From NCBI GenBank assembly GCA_902763535.1, contig CACWSG010000004.1, positions 71,568 through 135,567 of the forward strand: a stretch of 64,000 nucleotides of DNA, read 5' to 3'. Positions within the stretch are counted from its first letter, which is position 1. Every line of letters starts with the position of its first letter. Below, piece after piece: positions 4,496 to 34,928 of this stretch. The notes beneath the pieces are model-generated. The model was not told the origin of the DNA, ran no database searches, and saw only the letters and a list, made by a program, of their open reading frames with translations. This DNA is from an uncultured Pseudomonadota bacterium (GTDB taxonomy: Bacteria > Pseudomonadota > Alphaproteobacteria > RF32 > CAG-239). The position numbers were made by a program, and so were the translations under genes.

Positions 4496-5974
4496 ATGGA
4501 ATTTAATCGCAAAAATTTTTCCAACTATTTCATGATTGCAACCATAGTTTTCGTGGTTATATGGTTTAATGCGTTGTATTTTAAAAATCGCATTTCCAGC
4601 AATCATCAAAGTATTTCGGAATATAATTTGAGCGATGAAGATATTGCTCCGGCATCCAGTTTGGCAACAGCCGCCTTTTTTTATCCGGCCGAAAGCTATC
4701 AAACTGACAACGATAACGATGGTTATATCGAACATAAATCATTATACACCAAACATAAGCCGCTTGTTGTAATTGAACCGCATTACGGCTATCGGCGTTC
4801 GAGTGCCGTTGCGGCGGCAAGTTATGACTATTTGCGCGGTTTTGCGCAAAAGTTGAAAAATATCATTTTAGTCGGACCTTTGCATCAAAATATCAAAGGA
4901 GCTGTTTTGCCGAAAGTCGGTAGCATAACCACCCCTTTAGGTGAAGTTCAGATAAATCGCAATATCATTGGTGAGCTTCAGAAAAATCCATTGTTTGATA
5001 AAAATCAGCCTTATCCGGTTAAAAACTCGATTAATATGCAGTTGCCGTTTATTGCCAATACTTTTGATAAGGTCAAAATTGTTCCGATACTTTATGGTGA
5101 TATCAAAATTGAAAAATTGGTTGATGTCGTTAGCCAATATGTTTCACCGAAAAATTTGATAATTATTGTTGCGGATTTGCCGGCTTATTTTCCTCTGAAC
5201 AAAGATGAGGTTGTAAACGGCAAGCACGCCAAATGCCAAGAAGTGGGTATAAAAACTGCCATGGCGCTTGCCAGAAAATATGGTTTGGTTCCCAAGCTCT
5301 TAAATGTTGAAAGTCAGGCCAATTACAAAGGTGTATCGTTTAAGCAAAGAGGTTGGAGTTATAAAGAACCAACTGAAAAGCCTGTTTTATACGGGGTAGA
5401 ATTATCGTACCACAACTTGCAAAATTTTGTGCGGCACCATCAAAAAGAGTTATTGGACATTGTTAAAAAAGGTTTGTCATCAGGAATTGACAAACGCTAC
5501 AAGGTCAAACGCAAATATTACAATGACTTTTTATTTAATCGCGGAGCATCGCTGATTAACATATATCGTGATAAAAAATTATTAGCAAGCACAGGCGATG
5601 TGGCAGCAACCAAAGCGATTGCCGCAGACATATCGGATAATATCTTTCATGCACTGAATTCATTAAGTAAAAAAGATTTAAGAAATATTGCCGCATTGAA
5701 AGTCTCACTCCAATTGTTAACTGATATGGAAGAGATAAAATTTTCAACCTATGAAGACCTAATGGAAAAAATAGAATACGGCGTTGACGGACTGGTTATT
5801 CGCAGCGGCGAACGCGAAGGATTTTTGCCTCCCGATGCGTGGTTGGATGTCAAAGATAAAGCTGAGTTTTTAACCAAGTTGAAAATTAAGGCGGGATTGA
5901 GCCCCACCTATTGGTCAGACACTACAAAAGTTTTTCGTTTTAGAACAGTTGAGGTGAGAGATGACAAAAATTAA
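4496..5974 (+). CDS. Membrane-anchored Memo-AMMECR1 fusion (AmmeMemoRadiSam B+A type)
   Basis: One N-terminal membrane helix (about residues 11-30) is followed by a Memo-like domain (about 80-330: EPHYGYR with H96, GPLHQN with H130, QLPFI, KIVPILYG) and a C-terminal AMMECR1-like domain (about 335-488: DGLVIRSGEREGFLPPDAW, KAGLSPTYW, FRFRTVEV). Memo and AMMECR1 are known to occur together, often with a radical SAM protein; their biochemical role is unsettled. Two oddities: where Memo proteins usually have a His in a DxSHY-like motif, this has DLPAY; and the AMMECR1 LRGCIG signature is replaced by LLASTGD. The protein is therefore probably not a standard Memo/AMMECR1 enzyme. It overlaps the next gene by 14 bases, implying translational coupling. 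Confidence 0.8.
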   Translation: MEFNRKNFSNYFMIATIVFVVIWFNALYFKNRISSNHQSISEYNLSDEDIAPASSLATAAFFYPAESYQTDNDNDGYIEHKSLYTKHKPLVVIEPHYGYRRSSAVAAASYDYLRGFAQKLKNIILVGPLHQNIKGAVLPKVGSITTPLGEVQINRNIIGELQKNPLFDKNQPYPVKNSINMQLPFIANTFDKVKIVPILYGDIKIEKLVDVVSQYVSPKNLIIIVADLPAYFPLNKDEVVNGKHAKCQEVGIKTAMALARKYGLVPKLLNVESQANYKGVSFKQRGWSYKEPTEKPVLYGVELSYHNLQNFVRHHQKELLDIVKKGLSSGIDKRYKVKRKYYNDFLFNRGASLINIYRDKKLLASTGDVAATKAIAADISDNIFHALNSLSKKDLRNIAALKVSLQLLTDMEEIKFSTYEDLMEKIEYGVDGLVIRSGEREGFLPPDAWLDVKDKAEFLTKLKIKAGLSPTYWSDTTKVFRFRTVEVRDDKN

Positions 5975-7676: not shown

Positions 7677-9055
7677 TGCATTATTGTTTGAAAGAAATTT
7701 TTGCTATCGGTATCGGACCATCCAGTTCCCACACGGTTGGTCCGATGCGGGCAGCCAAGAGATTTGTCGAAAATATCAAAAGATATGACTCAATAGATCA
7801 GGTTACATCAATCAAAGTTGATCTATACGGCTCCTTAGCTCTGACCGGTATCGGACATGGAACTCTGAAAGCAATAGCCTATGGATTGATGGGTTTTGAG
7901 GCTGAAGATGTTGATACCGATCAACCCTATTATTCATATCTTGAACGCGATAAAATGTTGCACTTAGGTCAGGTAAAACCGATAGCTTTTGATGTTGAAA
8001 AAGATATGATTCTGCACAAAGATGAGTTTTTGCCCGAACATTCCAATGGTATGCGGTTTACCGCTTATGCCGCTAAAAAAGAAATCTTAAGCGAAGAATA
8101 TTTTTCTGTTGGTGGCGGCACAATTCTGCGCAAAGACGAAATGGATCAATTATCAACTCAAAAATTTTATAATGTTCCGCACCAATATGATAGTTGTGAT
8201 GAGTTACAGGCAATTTGTGACAAGTATAATCTCAGCATATCAGATGTCGTTTTGCAAAATGAAGTAAGTTTAATGCCGGAAAAAGAGGTATATGATTACC
8301 TAAAGAAAATTCATAATATTATGGATGCGGCAATTGACAAAGGAATGCGCGGTACCGGAGAGCTCCCGGGAGGATTGCATGTCAAACGCCGAGCAGCAGA
8401 GATTTATCGTCGCATGAAAGAGAAGTTTTTGACCAATCAGCAAGATGGTTTGGAAGTAATTGATTGGTTGAATTTATGGGGCTTTGCTGTCGCAGAAGAA
8501 AATGCATCAGGTGGGCGAATTGTTACTGCACCGACTATGGGGTCAGCCGGAGTTATGCCTGCGGTTTTGCGTTATTTTCAAAAATTTGCTTCGCATATGT
8601 CGCCTCTTACGGTTGAAGATGGTATCGTTAAATTTTTTACCACTGCTGCTGCAATATGTTCGCTTTATCGAACCAATGCATCGATTTCCGGCGCTGAAGT
8701 CGGCTGTCAAGGTGAGGTGGGTGTTGCTTGTTCTATTTCAGCTGCCGGATTGGCTGCCGCTATGGGGGGAAATAATCAGCAAATTGAACAAGCTGCCGAA
8801 ATCGCAATTGAGCATAATTTGGGATTAACTTGTGATCCGGTATGCGGTTTGGTACAGATTCCCTGTATTGAACGCAATGCCATGGGCGCGGTTAAAGCGG
8901 TCAATTCCGCTCGTTTGGCCTTGCAAGGCAAAGGTGAACACTTTGTTTCATTGGACAGTGCCATAAAAACCATGTACAGCACCGGTCGCGACATGAGCAG
9001 TCGCTATAAAGAGACTTCTCTCGGCGGATTAGCTGTCAATATTGCTAACTGTTAA
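7676..9055 (+). CDS. sdaA: L-serine dehydratase (iron-sulfur, single chain)
   Basis: 459 residues, the normal length for single-chain SdaA. It converts L-serine to pyruvate and ammonia with a [4Fe-4S] cluster. The N-terminal beta domain begins with the conserved [16 protein letters not shown]; the alpha domain contains [26 protein letters not shown] (cluster Cys) and [18 protein letters not shown] (two more cluster Cys). The ATG overlaps the TAA of the M49-like gene by one base (TAATG), showing translational coupling. Last gene of the operon that starts at 2571. Confidence 0.97.
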
Positions 9056-30384: not shown

Positions 30385-30418
30385 ATATAAAAAATCCCCT
30401 TTGGCAAACCAAAGGGGA
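30385..30418 (-). terminator. Rho-independent terminator for the minus-strand Cys-rich genes
   Basis: TCCCCTTTGG / CCAAAGGGGA (30395-30404, 30409-30418) with loop CAAA; read on the minus strand it is followed by a T-rich run. It ends the 34928-30427 unit. Confidence 0.88.
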
Positions 30419-30426
30419 AAAGAAAT

Positions 30427-32724
30427 TTAATCTAAAAGTCCAGGATTAAGTCCAGGATTAAACCCACCATCGTCCAGCGGATTTATTTTGCCATATCCGG
30501 CGCCGCTATTGTATGCACTATCGCTGGACCAATCATCGGTATCAGCACCATAGTAATATACACAACGTACATTGCGTGGGCGATCAGCGTCGCCGGTTTG
30601 CCAGCTTTGTGCTACGCCAAACTTAGCCTCGCCGGTACGCGGCAACGGACGATAAAACCAAGTGTAGTCATAATTCTTGATGCCTTTTTTGGTTACCTCA
30701 TTATATGGAGAAACATCGCTCGGACCGGTATAATCATCAATGGTATAACCCATAGTTGAAGCCCATAATGATTCATTGCTAAGGAACGAATATTTTTTTG
30801 TCCCTGTATTGATGAGAAGTGCCGGTTTGTTAACTTGCTTATTCGTTCCAATCCAATTTTTCAAAACATCTTTAACATCATTAAAGAATGTCCGAGTATT
30901 AGCTATTTCGGTAGACCCGCTTCGCACATCAAGAGAGTCATACCGTAATCTGATAGGCAACAGACCTGAAGCGGCATTTATATACTCCATATCCTCAAAA
31001 GATTTTGCTGCTCTGATTTTGGCTCCGATAGCCTTCAGTTCGGTTTTCAATGTTGCCGGATTAGCAGTCAAAAGCGGATTGGTTCCGCCGCTAATCGCTT
31101 TCATTATGGTTGGAGTATTAATACCGATTAAGTTAACTTTTATATCTTGCTTGTTTGAGCTGTGTTTTGGATCATAGTTGTACTTGGCAACAAAACGAGC
31201 TGCTGCTGCCAAACCGGCATTTACCTTTTCGATATTGTCGCCTAAAACACCCAAATCGCCGATTGATGGCAGAAACCAATAATTTCCTGCCGGATCATAA
31301 TAGGTTGATCCCCAACCCCCAAAGTCAAAGGCCATTTCATAAACAAGTGGTTCAGGACCATCACCGCCTGCCACTCCTCCCATAACATTACAAGTGTTAC
31401 CACACATTGTTACATCATGACTATATTCATAAGAAGCTAGGGTAGAAGGATTGAGCCTGTCTCTATTCATCATCATACATCTGGTCGCTGCTGCAGTTTC
31501 AACCTTTGTGCCTCGAGTCGTAAACGTGCCGGTACAAAAACGACCATAACAACCTGCAGCCTCTCGCTCAGCTGAGGTGGCAGGCCTTTCTGATATTATT
31601 TTATTTTGGTTATCTTTTGCCCATTCATAAAGCTTTCTGGTATCAGCATAACCGCCTACTGACTTTTTCGTTGAGCGATAATCCAAAGCTGCTTGTTTGC
31701 AACGTTGCACCTGAGCACAATCAGAACTCAACGGTTTGAAAATTTCACTTCCTAATTTATAATCCTCAAATCGCAACAATTTTTGCGTTCCTGAAGCATC
31801 AATATAAGGCTCAAAAGCTGTCGTCTGAATCTTGATATCTTCAACAGTTAAACCGGAAAACGGTTTGATGGAATTGTATGCCGGACCTTCACCATTGTTA
31901 CTGTCTTTCAGCTCAACCATTTTTTTGAAAAATGCTTTGGGGGTTTCTTCCAAATTAAATTTCTTGTTTTTGAGGGCAGCGCCGGAAAGCTGGAATTCTG
32001 TTCTGGCATTGTAATTACATTCACAACTGTCATAATCAATCAATGTATTAACATTTGGTGCCGGCGTACCGATAGAATATTCAGTTGTAGTATTGTTAAT
32101 CAAGACAGCTGTCGGAAAATCCATTTTAACCTTTTCATATTTAAGTTGAAATGATTGAGGTGCTCCGCTGGTGTCCAGTTTTTGAGCTACCCCTGGAAAC
32201 TTTACAGTAGAAGGAACTTCTTTGGTTTCCTTTTGATAAAGATCTGTTGGATTAACTTTGTAAAACGGCTCAACGATTTTATAGGTCGAGTTGGTTATAG
32301 TTGTAGAATGCAACAAATCTTGTTCTCTGGTTCTAACCGCAGGAACCATGCTTCCACCTTCCAACTCAACTGCCAATTTGTTTTCAGGGTCAAACACCAC
32401 AGCTTTCGGCATAACCCCTTCGGGGACTTTATCCAAATCATAATAGCATCGTTTGTCGTCAAACAATATGTCACCGGCCTCACAAACTTTAGACTTACTG
32501 CGATAACAATAAACTTTGCTGTCATCAAAAGGACACTTTAAAGTAGGATATGAGCAATTATTTCCACTGTCATCACATCCGCAATTAGTTTTTGTCAACA
32601 CATAGCCCATGTCAGCACACTTTTCAGTGGTATTAACCGTATCACAATCCGGAGTAGCTGCATAAGCCATATTCAAAACCATTGAGGTTGATAATGCCGT
32701 AAATGTCATAAATATCTTTTTCAT
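30427..32724 (-). CDS. Large Cys-rich exported protein, copy with one Cys module
   Basis: 765 residues with a signal peptide (1-22, ending MAYA). The N-terminal region holds one Cys module: C36-ADMGYVLTKTN-C48, then KCPFDDSKVYC (C64-C73), then CEAGDILFDDKRC. A long middle region follows, with scattered Cys pairs (YDSCECNYN), and near residue 480 the motif YWFLPSIGDL, which recalls the W-x-LP-S segment of Lcl/FISUMP-type C-terminal domains. It lacks membrane helices after the signal. It is a paralogue of the next gene upstream, 17 bases away, and both end at a shared terminator. Surface or secreted location is inferred. Function unknown. Confidence 0.65.
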   Translation of the reverse strand: MKKIFMTFTALSTSMVLNMAYAATPDCDTVNTTEKCADMGYVLTKTNCGCDDSGNNCSYPTLKCPFDDSKVYCYRSKSKVCEAGDILFDDKRCYYDLDKVPEGVMPKAVVFDPENKLAVELEGGSMVPAVRTREQDLLHSTTITNSTYKIVEPFYKVNPTDLYQKETKEVPSTVKFPGVAQKLDTSGAPQSFQLKYEKVKMDFPTAVLINNTTTEYSIGTPAPNVNTLIDYDSCECNYNARTEFQLSGAALKNKKFNLEETPKAFFKKMVELKDSNNGEGPAYNSIKPFSGLTVEDIKIQTTAFEPYIDASGTQKLLRFEDYKLGSEIFKPLSSDCAQVQRCKQAALDYRSTKKSVGGYADTRKLYEWAKDNQNKIISERPATSAEREAAGCYGRFCTGTFTTRGTKVETAAATRCMMMNRDRLNPSTLASYEYSHDVTMCGNTCNVMGGVAGGDGPEPLVYEMAFDFGGWGSTYYDPAGNYWFLPSIGDLGVLGDNIEKVNAGLAAAARFVAKYNYDPKHSSNKQDIKVNLIGINTPTIMKAISGGTNPLLTANPATLKTELKAIGAKIRAAKSFEDMEYINAASGLLPIRLRYDSLDVRSGSTEIANTRTFFNDVKDVLKNWIGTNKQVNKPALLINTGTKKYSFLSNESLWASTMGYTIDDYTGPSDVSPYNEVTKKGIKNYDYTWFYRPLPRTGEAKFGVAQSWQTGDADRPRNVRCVYYYGADTDDWSSDSAYNSGAGYGKINPLDDGGFNPGLNPGLLD

Positions 32725-32741
32725 TTTTAAATCCTCCTTAA

Positions 32742-34928
32742 TTATAAGCCTTTCTTATCGAGACTATCATGGAACGAACTGGCAGAAATGCCGCTAAATG
32801 CTGATACGCTCATAGTTGCTTCATTAGATAAATCGACTCCCGGCACAATTTTTTCTCTTGCCTCAATGATTGAGCTGAATCGTGAGGGTCTTGAAACGGC
32901 AGGAACAGCAGGATCACTGTCGCCGCAAATGCTCTTCTTGCCAACTTTTGCAACATTTTCATATTGCGAAGCATCAACACCAACCAAAGTTACACAGTGT
33001 ACCACATCGCCGAGTAAAGATAATTGTAAATCCCAAGAGTATGTTACATCACCTTTATCACGATCGGTGGCATTACTACCTCTTTGAAGAGGACACATAA
33101 CACCGGTGGTTGTACCGCTACTGTTGGACAAATACATCGCTGAGGTAATTGTTCTGCCCAACTCTCTTTTCATCAATACCTCAGGGCTCTTTACATTAGC
33201 AAGATTTTGTCCGTTAAATCCGCTCGGGAATACCGAAGTTTGAGAAGCGGCGGCAAGCAAAGCCTGACGATATTTTTCCAACATTTCCGAATCTTCCATC
33301 AGGTTTTTGATATCGCCCGGAGCCGGCAAAAACCAATCTTGTCCACCCGAGGTACGACCAACACACAGCTTTGCTGCTTCACTGCTTAAACCTATTTTGC
33401 GGGTAGCCGCAGCTCCGCTGGGAGCAGGCGCAAAGGATACAACTCCGTTTGCATTTATGCTGGTCATGCGTGGATTGATAAATCCGCTATTAAGTTCTTT
33501 AATCCTCATCATCGGGAATTGCTCAACCTTTTTCATACCGCAACTGCAGTTATAGATGGTCCTTGATGGTAATACACTAGTGGACTGGAAAGTTTCAGAT
33601 AATTCCGCAACTGTTTGAGGTACGGTTGCACCGCGTAAACCAAAGTTTTCCACAACATGCGGTTTGGCATAATTCTGAGCAAGCAAAGGTTTAACTTTAA
33701 CAATCGGTCTGAATTTGTTTGTGCTGGCATCAATATATGGAGATGCACAGTTGCCGCTGCGCAAGTCTTTACAAATAAGCATTAAACCGGCTGCGGCTGT
33801 TTGAGTTGCCGCGTTAGGTATTTTGGGGGTTATAGGAGAACTCCTCGTCCAAGTAACATTCAGTTTATCTGTCGGCAAACTATTCATATACGGCAACCAT
33901 GTTTGACCGGTAACCGCCGGACTATATACCGACTTTTTCAATTCACGCATAGCATAAATTTCACGTAAAACATTCTCCTTTAACTTAGTAAAGTTTTCAG
34001 AGCTTATGGTTGCGGGGCTAATATCGCACACATCTTCCAACAACTGCTCCATCGCCGTTACATTACATACCGGAACATAACGGTCAATATTGATATTAAA
34101 AGCACCATTGTTCGCCAGCAGATTGGTAATATAGTAGCCATTGTTGCTGGTGGTTGTGGTGTAATATCCGCCGCTGGTGGCAACACCGGCATTGCTAAAA
34201 GTCTGGTCATAATCATTTATGCTGAAAACATTGCCGTATGGAACTTCAACCTCAGAAAACGGCGCACCGTTACAATCCTTAACTTCATTGGTTACTGCGG
34301 AAAATAATCCTGTTGCACTGCTGGTTTTTTTCTCACAAACAATACCGGATTGTACACCGACATTGCGCCATACAATTTGTCCCGAGTGCCCACCAATATT
34401 GCGTACATAATTCTCGCCGGAATAAGCCGAACCATAGAATGACAAATCAATTGCCACCTTGTCGTTCAACATAAATCCGATAGGAGTTTTGCCATTGGCA
34501 TCGCTGCCTTTCCAGCAGCCTATGTTATTGTTGGCATCAGTATATAATGTGTCACCGGCAACGCAGTTATAGCCGCCGCAATAGAACTTATCATCATCAA
34601 ACGGACAGGCCAAACGAGTATGAGTGCGCTCGCACTCTTCAGCAGTGCGGTTATACCCTAAAGCATCACAATCACGCGTGCTGCAAGTCATGGATTCGTT
34701 ACCGGGCACGCTTTCCGGAACATTAGCACTATCGCCGCAGAACAACGCTTGTTCATTAAACGGACATTTAATCGCTTTATACCCCTTACATTCATTGGCA
34801 GTTTGGTTAAAACCCAATTGCGCACAAGTCGGATGAGATGATCCGCAATTAAAAGTTGTTGCCAAAGCCGAAAAAGGCGTCAGTAAAGCTACTGCACCCA
34901 AAACTCCCATGTTCAGCTGTTTCACCAT
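32742..34928 (-). CDS. Large Cys-rich exported protein, copy with two Cys modules
   Basis: 728 residues; signal peptide about 1-24 (ending SALA). Two tandem Cys modules: C35-AQLGFNQTANE-C47 with KCPFNEQALFC (C55-C64), and C87-DALGYNRTAEE-C99 with ACPFDDDKFYC (C108-C117). Then CVAGDTLYTDANNNIGC. Around residue 530 is DWFLPAPGDI, matching YWFLPSIGDL of the paralogue; a YNCSCGMKK motif parallels YDSCECNYN there. The middle is Gly/Asn/Tyr-rich. AAAGGAG precedes the ATG. A lineage-specific exported protein family; no known function recognised. Confidence 0.65.
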   Translation of the reverse strand: MVKQLNMGVLGAVALLTPFSALATTFNCGSSHPTCAQLGFNQTANECKGYKAIKCPFNEQALFCGDSANVPESVPGNESMTCSTRDCDALGYNRTAEECERTHTRLACPFDDDKFYCGGYNCVAGDTLYTDANNNIGCWKGSDANGKTPIGFMLNDKVAIDLSFYGSAYSGENYVRNIGGHSGQIVWRNVGVQSGIVCEKKTSSATGLFSAVTNEVKDCNGAPFSEVEVPYGNVFSINDYDQTFSNAGVATSGGYYTTTTSNNGYYITNLLANNGAFNINIDRYVPVCNVTAMEQLLEDVCDISPATISSENFTKLKENVLREIYAMRELKKSVYSPAVTGQTWLPYMNSLPTDKLNVTWTRSSPITPKIPNAATQTAAAGLMLICKDLRSGNCASPYIDASTNKFRPIVKVKPLLAQNYAKPHVVENFGLRGATVPQTVAELSETFQSTSVLPSRTIYNCSCGMKKVEQFPMMRIKELNSGFINPRMTSINANGVVSFAPAPSGAAATRKIGLSSEAAKLCVGRTSGGQDWFLPAPGDIKNLMEDSEMLEKYRQALLAAASQTSVFPSGFNGQNLANVKSPEVLMKRELGRTITSAMYLSNSSGTTTGVMCPLQRGSNATDRDKGDVTYSWDLQLSLLGDVVHCVTLVGVDASQYENVAKVGKKSICGDSDPAVPAVSRPSRFSSIIEAREKIVPGVDLSNEATMSVSAFSGISASSFHDSLDKKGL

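Follow-up and report, generated by a model that had tools for sequence, protein, structure and literature searches.

A five-cysteine cap and Lcl_C-type heads in a putative pair of exported binding proteins from a gut-type alphaproteobacterium

The Legionella collagen-like adhesin Lcl is an extracellular adhesin that binds sulphated glycosaminoglycans and has a collagen-like stalk and a C-terminal domain (Lcl-CTD; PF07603/DUF1566; 8Q4E) that is free of disulfides (PMC11162425). DUF1566 is also the commonest target domain of diversity-generating retroelements (DGRs) in surveys (PMC4159848, PMC6642488), and the cellular targets of DGRs are in general exported binding proteins (PMC8144416). Two further systems invite comparison, namely the Bacteroides ovatus fimbrial protein BACOVA_04982 (4EPS) and the receptor-binding proteins of phage tail collars and tail fibres (PF07484 and PHROG tail families).

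Here we describe two adjacent genes, P2 and P1, in a 64,000-nucleotide stretch of DNA (the window; C4:71568-135567) from a 1.5 Mb, 99% complete alphaproteobacterial genome, G000. Their products are predicted through relatives to have the lectin-type head fold of Lcl, but carry a Cys cap and two large inserts, whereas Lcl has no Cys module; no collagen-like Gly-X-Y stalk is present in either translation. The head match to 4EPS, a protein from another phylum, is limited to its residues 285-534, and its N-terminal part is replaced here by the Cys module. Relatives of P1 and P2 are targeted by DGRs at the same place in the fold as the described DUF1566 variable proteins, but these targets carry a family-specific Cys cap, and G000 has lost or never had the retroelement. 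Other relatives fuse the same cap to Collar heads, whereas P1 and P2 lack a Collar domain and are bacterial genes with signal peptides.

The P2-P1 locus and its cysteine module

In the window the two genes are bracketed by serS and eno. Gene order, the 17-base gap and the flanking hairpins suggest that they form a co-transcribed, operon-like pair with the following features.

32742..34928, minus strand: P2, first gene of the pair, 728 aa; Sec-type signal peptide, two Cys modules and a predicted expanded Lcl_C-type lectin-fold domain
30427..32724, minus strand: P1, second gene, 765 aa; signal peptide, one Cys module and a predicted expanded Lcl_C-type lectin-fold domain
32725..32741, minus strand: P2/P1 intergenic gap of 17 bases with the ribosome-binding site AAGGAGG
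30395..30418, minus strand: terminator-like hairpin 3' of P1
35134..35160, no strand given: terminator-like hairpin in the interval between serS and P2

Both translations open with a Sec-type signal peptide, and no ligand or surface-anchor signal was found in either protein. A reading of the sequence alone had proposed that two exported, cysteine-rich proteins here contain three copies of a module with constant C-x11-C and C-x8-C spacings. Read-back confirmed this description: C2-x11-C3 and C4-x8-C5 (numbered to include a further cysteine, below) are kept in all three copies, and the gap between C3 and C4 is 7, 8 and 15 residues.

34737..34847, minus strand: Cys module 2a of P2, CGSSHPTCAQLGFNQTANECKGYKAIKCPFNEQALFC, found by leave-out profile and read-back
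34578..34685, minus strand: Cys module 2b of P2, CSTRDCDALGYNRTAEECERTHTRLACPFDDDKFYC, found by leave-out profile and read-back
32506..32646, minus strand: P1 copy of the Cys module; its C3-C4 loop has 15 residues, two of them extra Cys

The leave-out profile was built from 33 modules of relatives with the window copies excluded, and when searched against 1073 frames of the window it found P2 (E=2.9e-24, two domains) and P1 (E=1.2e-5); none of 2000 shuffled P1/P2 sequences matched it. A fifth conserved Cys lies 5-10 residues ahead of the first one originally recognized and is present, at most 12 residues ahead, in 114 of 120 distinct modules from the relatives and the window, so that the earlier definition keeps its spacings and is better written with five cysteines. 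Absence of the spacing in other homologues had been named as a reason to give the module up; C2-x11-C3 occurs in 109 and C4-x8-C5 in 114 of the 120 modules, in a count for which the search pattern itself restricts the allowed range of spacings. The candidate family pattern becomes C1..C2-x11-C3..C4-P[FY]..x8-C5 after a signal peptide, and both P1 and P2 display it.

The claim that the module belongs to no known family, which a Pfam match was to overturn, stands after profile searches of Pfam, NCBIfam, PHROG and the PDB: none gave a family match, the best PDB match was a 12-residue CPFD fragment of GTSF1 (E=0.04), and a known Cys-rich domain was rejected as the identity of the module on the strength of these empty searches. 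No description of it turned up in literature searches on these alphaproteobacteria with adhesins or DGRs or on flagellins with C-type lectin domains. As far as the searched libraries and open papers go, the Cys cap, its use across the family and its association with partner genes and with hypermutated heads seem not to have been described. The invariant cysteines, five per module and hence odd in number, probably form disulfides; DsbB was not found in G000, though the genome encodes Cys-rich exported proteins.

Predicted lectin-type heads of P2 and P1

Two further motifs had been taken to define a family without known match, namely C-x-AGD-x-L[YF], which occurs once per protein, and [DY]WFLPxxGD, near residues 482-535 of P1 and P2. 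This interpretation was not sustained. A head profile made from relatives, with P1 and P2 left out, scores P1 at 56.8 bits (E=1e-16) and P2 at 28.7 bits (E=4e-8), against a best of 6.8 bits and no better than E=0.2 among 1000 shuffles, and the motifs are thus best read as opening strands and core of a single Lcl_C (DUF1566) C-type-lectin-fold domain.

34434..34574, minus strand: P2 'C-x-AGDxLYxD...KTPIGFM...AIDL', first lectin-fold strands, positions 10-50 of the relatives' profile
33276..33407, minus strand: P2 'AAKLC...DWFLPAPGD', lectin-fold core, positions 92-138 of the relatives' profile
32350..32496, minus strand: P1 'C-x-AGDILFDDKRC...AVVFD..LAVEL', first lectin-fold strands, 40.8 bits with the relatives' profile
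31183..31284, minus strand: P1 'YWFLPSIGDLGVLGDNIEKVNAGL', lectin-fold core, 15.9 bits with the relatives' profile
30541..30774, minus strand: P1 'LWAST...VRCVYYY', last lectin-fold strands, weak alone and seen by alignment

Short relatives of ~240 aa consist of the module followed by C-x-vGDILYsDkkC...KTPIGVVFD..rlAvaL...GdWFLPs..el..l...YWSSsE...VRcv, and for 12 of 24 relatives there is a match to PF07603 Lcl_C, the best at 9.3e-17. P1 and P2 themselves match no Pfam family at E<=10 and do not reach the gathering score of PF07603, and for this reason they are filed as Lcl_C relatives and not as Pfam members. The AF2 model of a canonical relative has a pLDDT of 88, and its residues 62-241, which follow the module, match the CTL part of 4EPS, which ranks first for the head in both structure (Z 17.7, 178 residues) and profile (E=2e-5), and Lcl-CTD (Z 13.3). 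The module of this relative (~residues 22-60) lies outside all fold matches listed, which therefore have no bearing on the novelty of the module fold. The AF2 model of P1, based on 18 alignment rows, has a pLDDT of 48.5 and its fold search returned only noise (Z under 3); because this model is poor and neither protein matches a Pfam family, the fold of the two heads was assigned through relatives. On profile evidence the P1 and P2 heads are homologous to Lcl_C-type domains via these intermediates, their C-type lectin fold is predicted from the relative's model, and the head fold is an already known one, not a new domain.

By alignment, two inserts, about 290 and 130 residues long, interrupt the lectin-type domain of P1. 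Orthologs of P2 and P1 in the arrangement serS-[P2-P1]-eno were found in one other species, RUG14511 (L040), and full-length matches to P1 only in G041, on the same contig as that locus. Identity to the RUG14511 orthologs is 55% for P1 and 63% for P2, compared with 97-98% for the flanking genes. The corresponding dN/dS values are 0.23-0.26 for P1/P2 versus 0.02-0.03 for the flanking genes, the P1/P2 ratios being rough since their synonymous distances are high, exceeding those of the flanks and approaching saturation. In blocks of 60 residues, the inserts retain roughly 25-65% identity to the ortholog and the cap and core about 75-90%. P1 and P2 are thus judged to be fast-evolving proteins in which the cap and fold core are conserved and the inserts are not.

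These values also bear on the idea that P1 and P2 are secreted enzymes or effectors with the inserts as their active part. The inserts are large and match nothing, as such a role would allow, but they are the least conserved portions of the proteins, no catalytic motif was seen and the short relatives do without them, so that we regard an enzyme or effector as improbable. The P2 ortholog in RUG14511 has the same two modules, with 32/37 identical residues between the a copies, 30/36 between the b copies and 13/35 between a and b; since a-a and b-b are far closer than a-b, the duplication is older than the species split. A recent or ongoing duplication was rejected on account of this two-copy ortholog, which contradicts the 'active evolution' that the sequence-only reading had seen in the duplicated module.

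Distribution, partner genes and diversified heads in relatives

A search of relatives with the module profile, as had been suggested, matched 94 of 153 genomes of the order (here essentially one alphaproteobacterial family), and copy number in a module-positive genome ranges from 1 to 50 or more. Samples of the class (385 genomes) and phylum (398) held no convincing module outside the same family; one other match, of 23 bits, lies in a 42-aa frame that contains a stop. As far as these profile searches reach, the module is restricted to one alphaproteobacterial family. A count of two paralogues understates what is a lineage-wide multigene family. Named records of the relatives are uncultured Alphaproteobacteria, at least some of them titled animal gut or rumen metagenomes. 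The module had no match in viral contigs, phages or plasmids, and an origin of the cap from any of these was rejected.

Among 143 distinct module ORFs, the module directly follows the signal peptide in 107 and is C-terminal in 16. The heads behind it vary and include Lcl_C, phage tail Collar (PF07484, 1.9e-22) and BspA-type leucine-rich repeats (LRR_5, 2.1e-10); the remainders of other module proteins are Cys-rich repeats or sequence without a match, and PHROG tail families are also matched by relatives. By domain content, the module is a constant N-terminal part shared by proteins with interchangeable heads. A same-strand ORF lies immediately upstream of 64 of the 80 N-terminal-module genes with enough upstream sequence, and 57 of these 64 ORFs bear a module or contain at least 8% Cys (hand count, P2 itself included). 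Several upstream partner proteins terminate in a module, and five partners scanned against Pfam gave no match. The P2-P1 pair fits this two-gene plan, yet P2 itself belongs to the head type and, with 3.3% Cys versus 8-15% in typical partners, is no Cys-rich partner. In another species a three-gene run of Cys-module or Cys-rich proteins (L140:5702-9753; G040:C5) lies elsewhere, near flagellar-looking genes.

This organization can be set against the view that the module has no partner and is no more than a secreted unit for folding or spacing, or a knob that binds metal, and that P2 and P1 act independently. The odd number of invariant cysteines would suit such a unit, as would the occasional tandem or mid-protein placement of the module in fusions (L099), and four of the cysteines could bind metal. 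However, its place right after the signal peptide favours disulfides over metal, and the strong operon link to Cys-rich or module-bearing upstream genes, together with the C-terminal copies on partners, argues for a shared role in assembly. We consider an independent spacer or metal-binding unit doubtful, although it is the likeliest of the alternatives weighed here.

Paralogues within one genome offer a view of how heads may change. In G136, DNA identity among four paralogues is 93-100% from the signal peptide through the module; along most of the upstream partner gene it is about 77-100%, and right after the module it mostly falls to 30-60%, values similar to those given by gapped alignment of unrelated DNA. 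Similar mosaics with constant 5' and variable 3' parts occur in G042, where some pairs stay alike further downstream.

Reverse transcriptases were found in 35 of 134 genomes searched, and several adjoin module genes. At five loci with a module-protein target, L170 (G042), L171 (G063), L172 (G135), L173 (G140) and L182 (G071), the template repeat corresponds to the sequence of the final Lcl_C-head strands; over cores of 57-119 bases the two differ by 8-20 mismatches, every one of them at a template adenine. In the targets at L172 and L173 the module is a CPH variant, which the search pattern missed and which is plain in translation. The same A-only pattern is present at L176 (G136), where the N-terminus of the head protein is lost at the contig end. 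Judged by their repeats, the five loci are DGRs; in at least five relatives a module protein is hypermutated in this way at its Lcl_C tip.

Such targeting of relatives is what could suggest that P1 and P2 are themselves hypermutated in G000. No RVT_1 reverse transcriptase is present, however, in this 99% complete genome or in its closest relative G041, and the window contains no template repeat for the C-terminus of P1 or P2. DGR action on P1/P2 in G000 is refuted unless a retroelement lies in the missing sequence, for which we see hardly any chance; the best explanation is that these heads are not retroelement-hypermutated and would change by ordinary fast divergence.

Lectin-type domains also occur in flagellins. 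At L174 (G047:C2:130000-142000) a DGR variable repeat (5436-5540) falls within a flagellin of 796 aa that has a lectin-type insert, and differs from its template (8856-8960) at 13 positions over 105 bases, all at template adenines; flagellin has been named in passing among DGR targets in one survey (PMC6642488). More A-biased template/variable repeat pairs, in tail-like proteins at L179, L187 and L188, probably belong to prophage retroelements. In G000 itself, a flagellin on the minus strand of L119:2811-4379 (G000:C4:8813-10378; Flagellin_N 6.6e-10) has in its variable middle an Lcl_C-type domain with an E-value of 3e-7, a match that falls short of Pfam's own cut-off. Several genomes of the genus encode long flagellins of this kind, and one 1.5 Mb genome has as many as 42 flagellin-like matches. 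Adjoining this flagellin, on the plus strand (L119:4840-6399), is a gene for a 519-aa Cys-rich protein with a diverged C-terminal lectin-type head (SWFLPAVGDI) and no Pfam match. A 1802-aa exported protein (L120:2123-7531, plus strand; G000:C3) combines several Lcl_C-type domains (1.8e-18) with Cys-rich repeats, and one of these domains is 44% identical to the L119 flagellin insert.

Proposed role of the cap and heads

P1 and P2 could be thought to belong to a flagellum- or pilus-associated appendage, as a tip or filament-decorating adhesin, instead of being free surface proteins. The closest solved head is the fimbrial protein 4EPS, the same lectin-type domain is inserted in the G000 flagellin, the window carries the flagellar genes fliF and flhA, and a secretin is present. 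Neither protein, however, has a pilin domain or pilin-type signal, and the genes stand between serS and eno, outside pilus and flagellar operons; we consider an appendage unlikely, slightly more so than the independent spacer.

The reading that we favour, and hold to be probable, is that a gut-type alphaproteobacterium exports P2 and P1 as paired binding proteins, either adhesins or receptors, each with a Cys cap and an Lcl_C-type head with two large insertions. It agrees with the general nature of cellular DGR targets (PMC8144416). Weighing against it are a fold assigned through relatives, the failure to find a ligand or surface-anchor signal or DsbB, the low Cys content of P2 and the odd number of invariant cysteines. 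After export by the Sec pathway, the constant N-terminal cap, a five-Cys module that is doubled in P2, would form disulfides ahead of the lectin-fold head, and the cap may dock or assemble the head on the cell surface. Its docking site would probably be the Cys-rich protein usually encoded just upstream, a place that P2 may take for P1. The head would then bind a ligand of host, particle or microbial origin. Given that Lcl, a member of this fold, binds sulphated glycosaminoglycans (PMC11162425), a glycan makes a sensible initial guess and no more, and the surface adhesin function of P1 and P2 is putative.

More tentatively, a display system may operate across the family, in which a Cys-rich scaffold and a head protein are joined via five-Cys caps, perhaps with an inter-protein disulfide formed by the odd Cys, and mount interchangeable receptor-binding heads of the lectin, phage collar or leucine-rich repeat type. 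Heads would be exchanged downstream of an unchanging 5' block. In some species DGRs would hypermutate them and would also diversify the same lectin-type head where it is set into flagellin, and P2-P1 would be an enlarged, fixed branch of the system.

A Cys module absent from the libraries searched is now linked with an extensive set of putative surface binding proteins, specific to one lineage of uncultured gut bacteria, and part of this set bears the marks of targeted hypermutation. The ligand, the anchor and the mode of diversification become directly testable. Together these features suggest a possible route by which such bacteria adjust their surface to the mucus of the host, to food particles, to neighbours or to phages.
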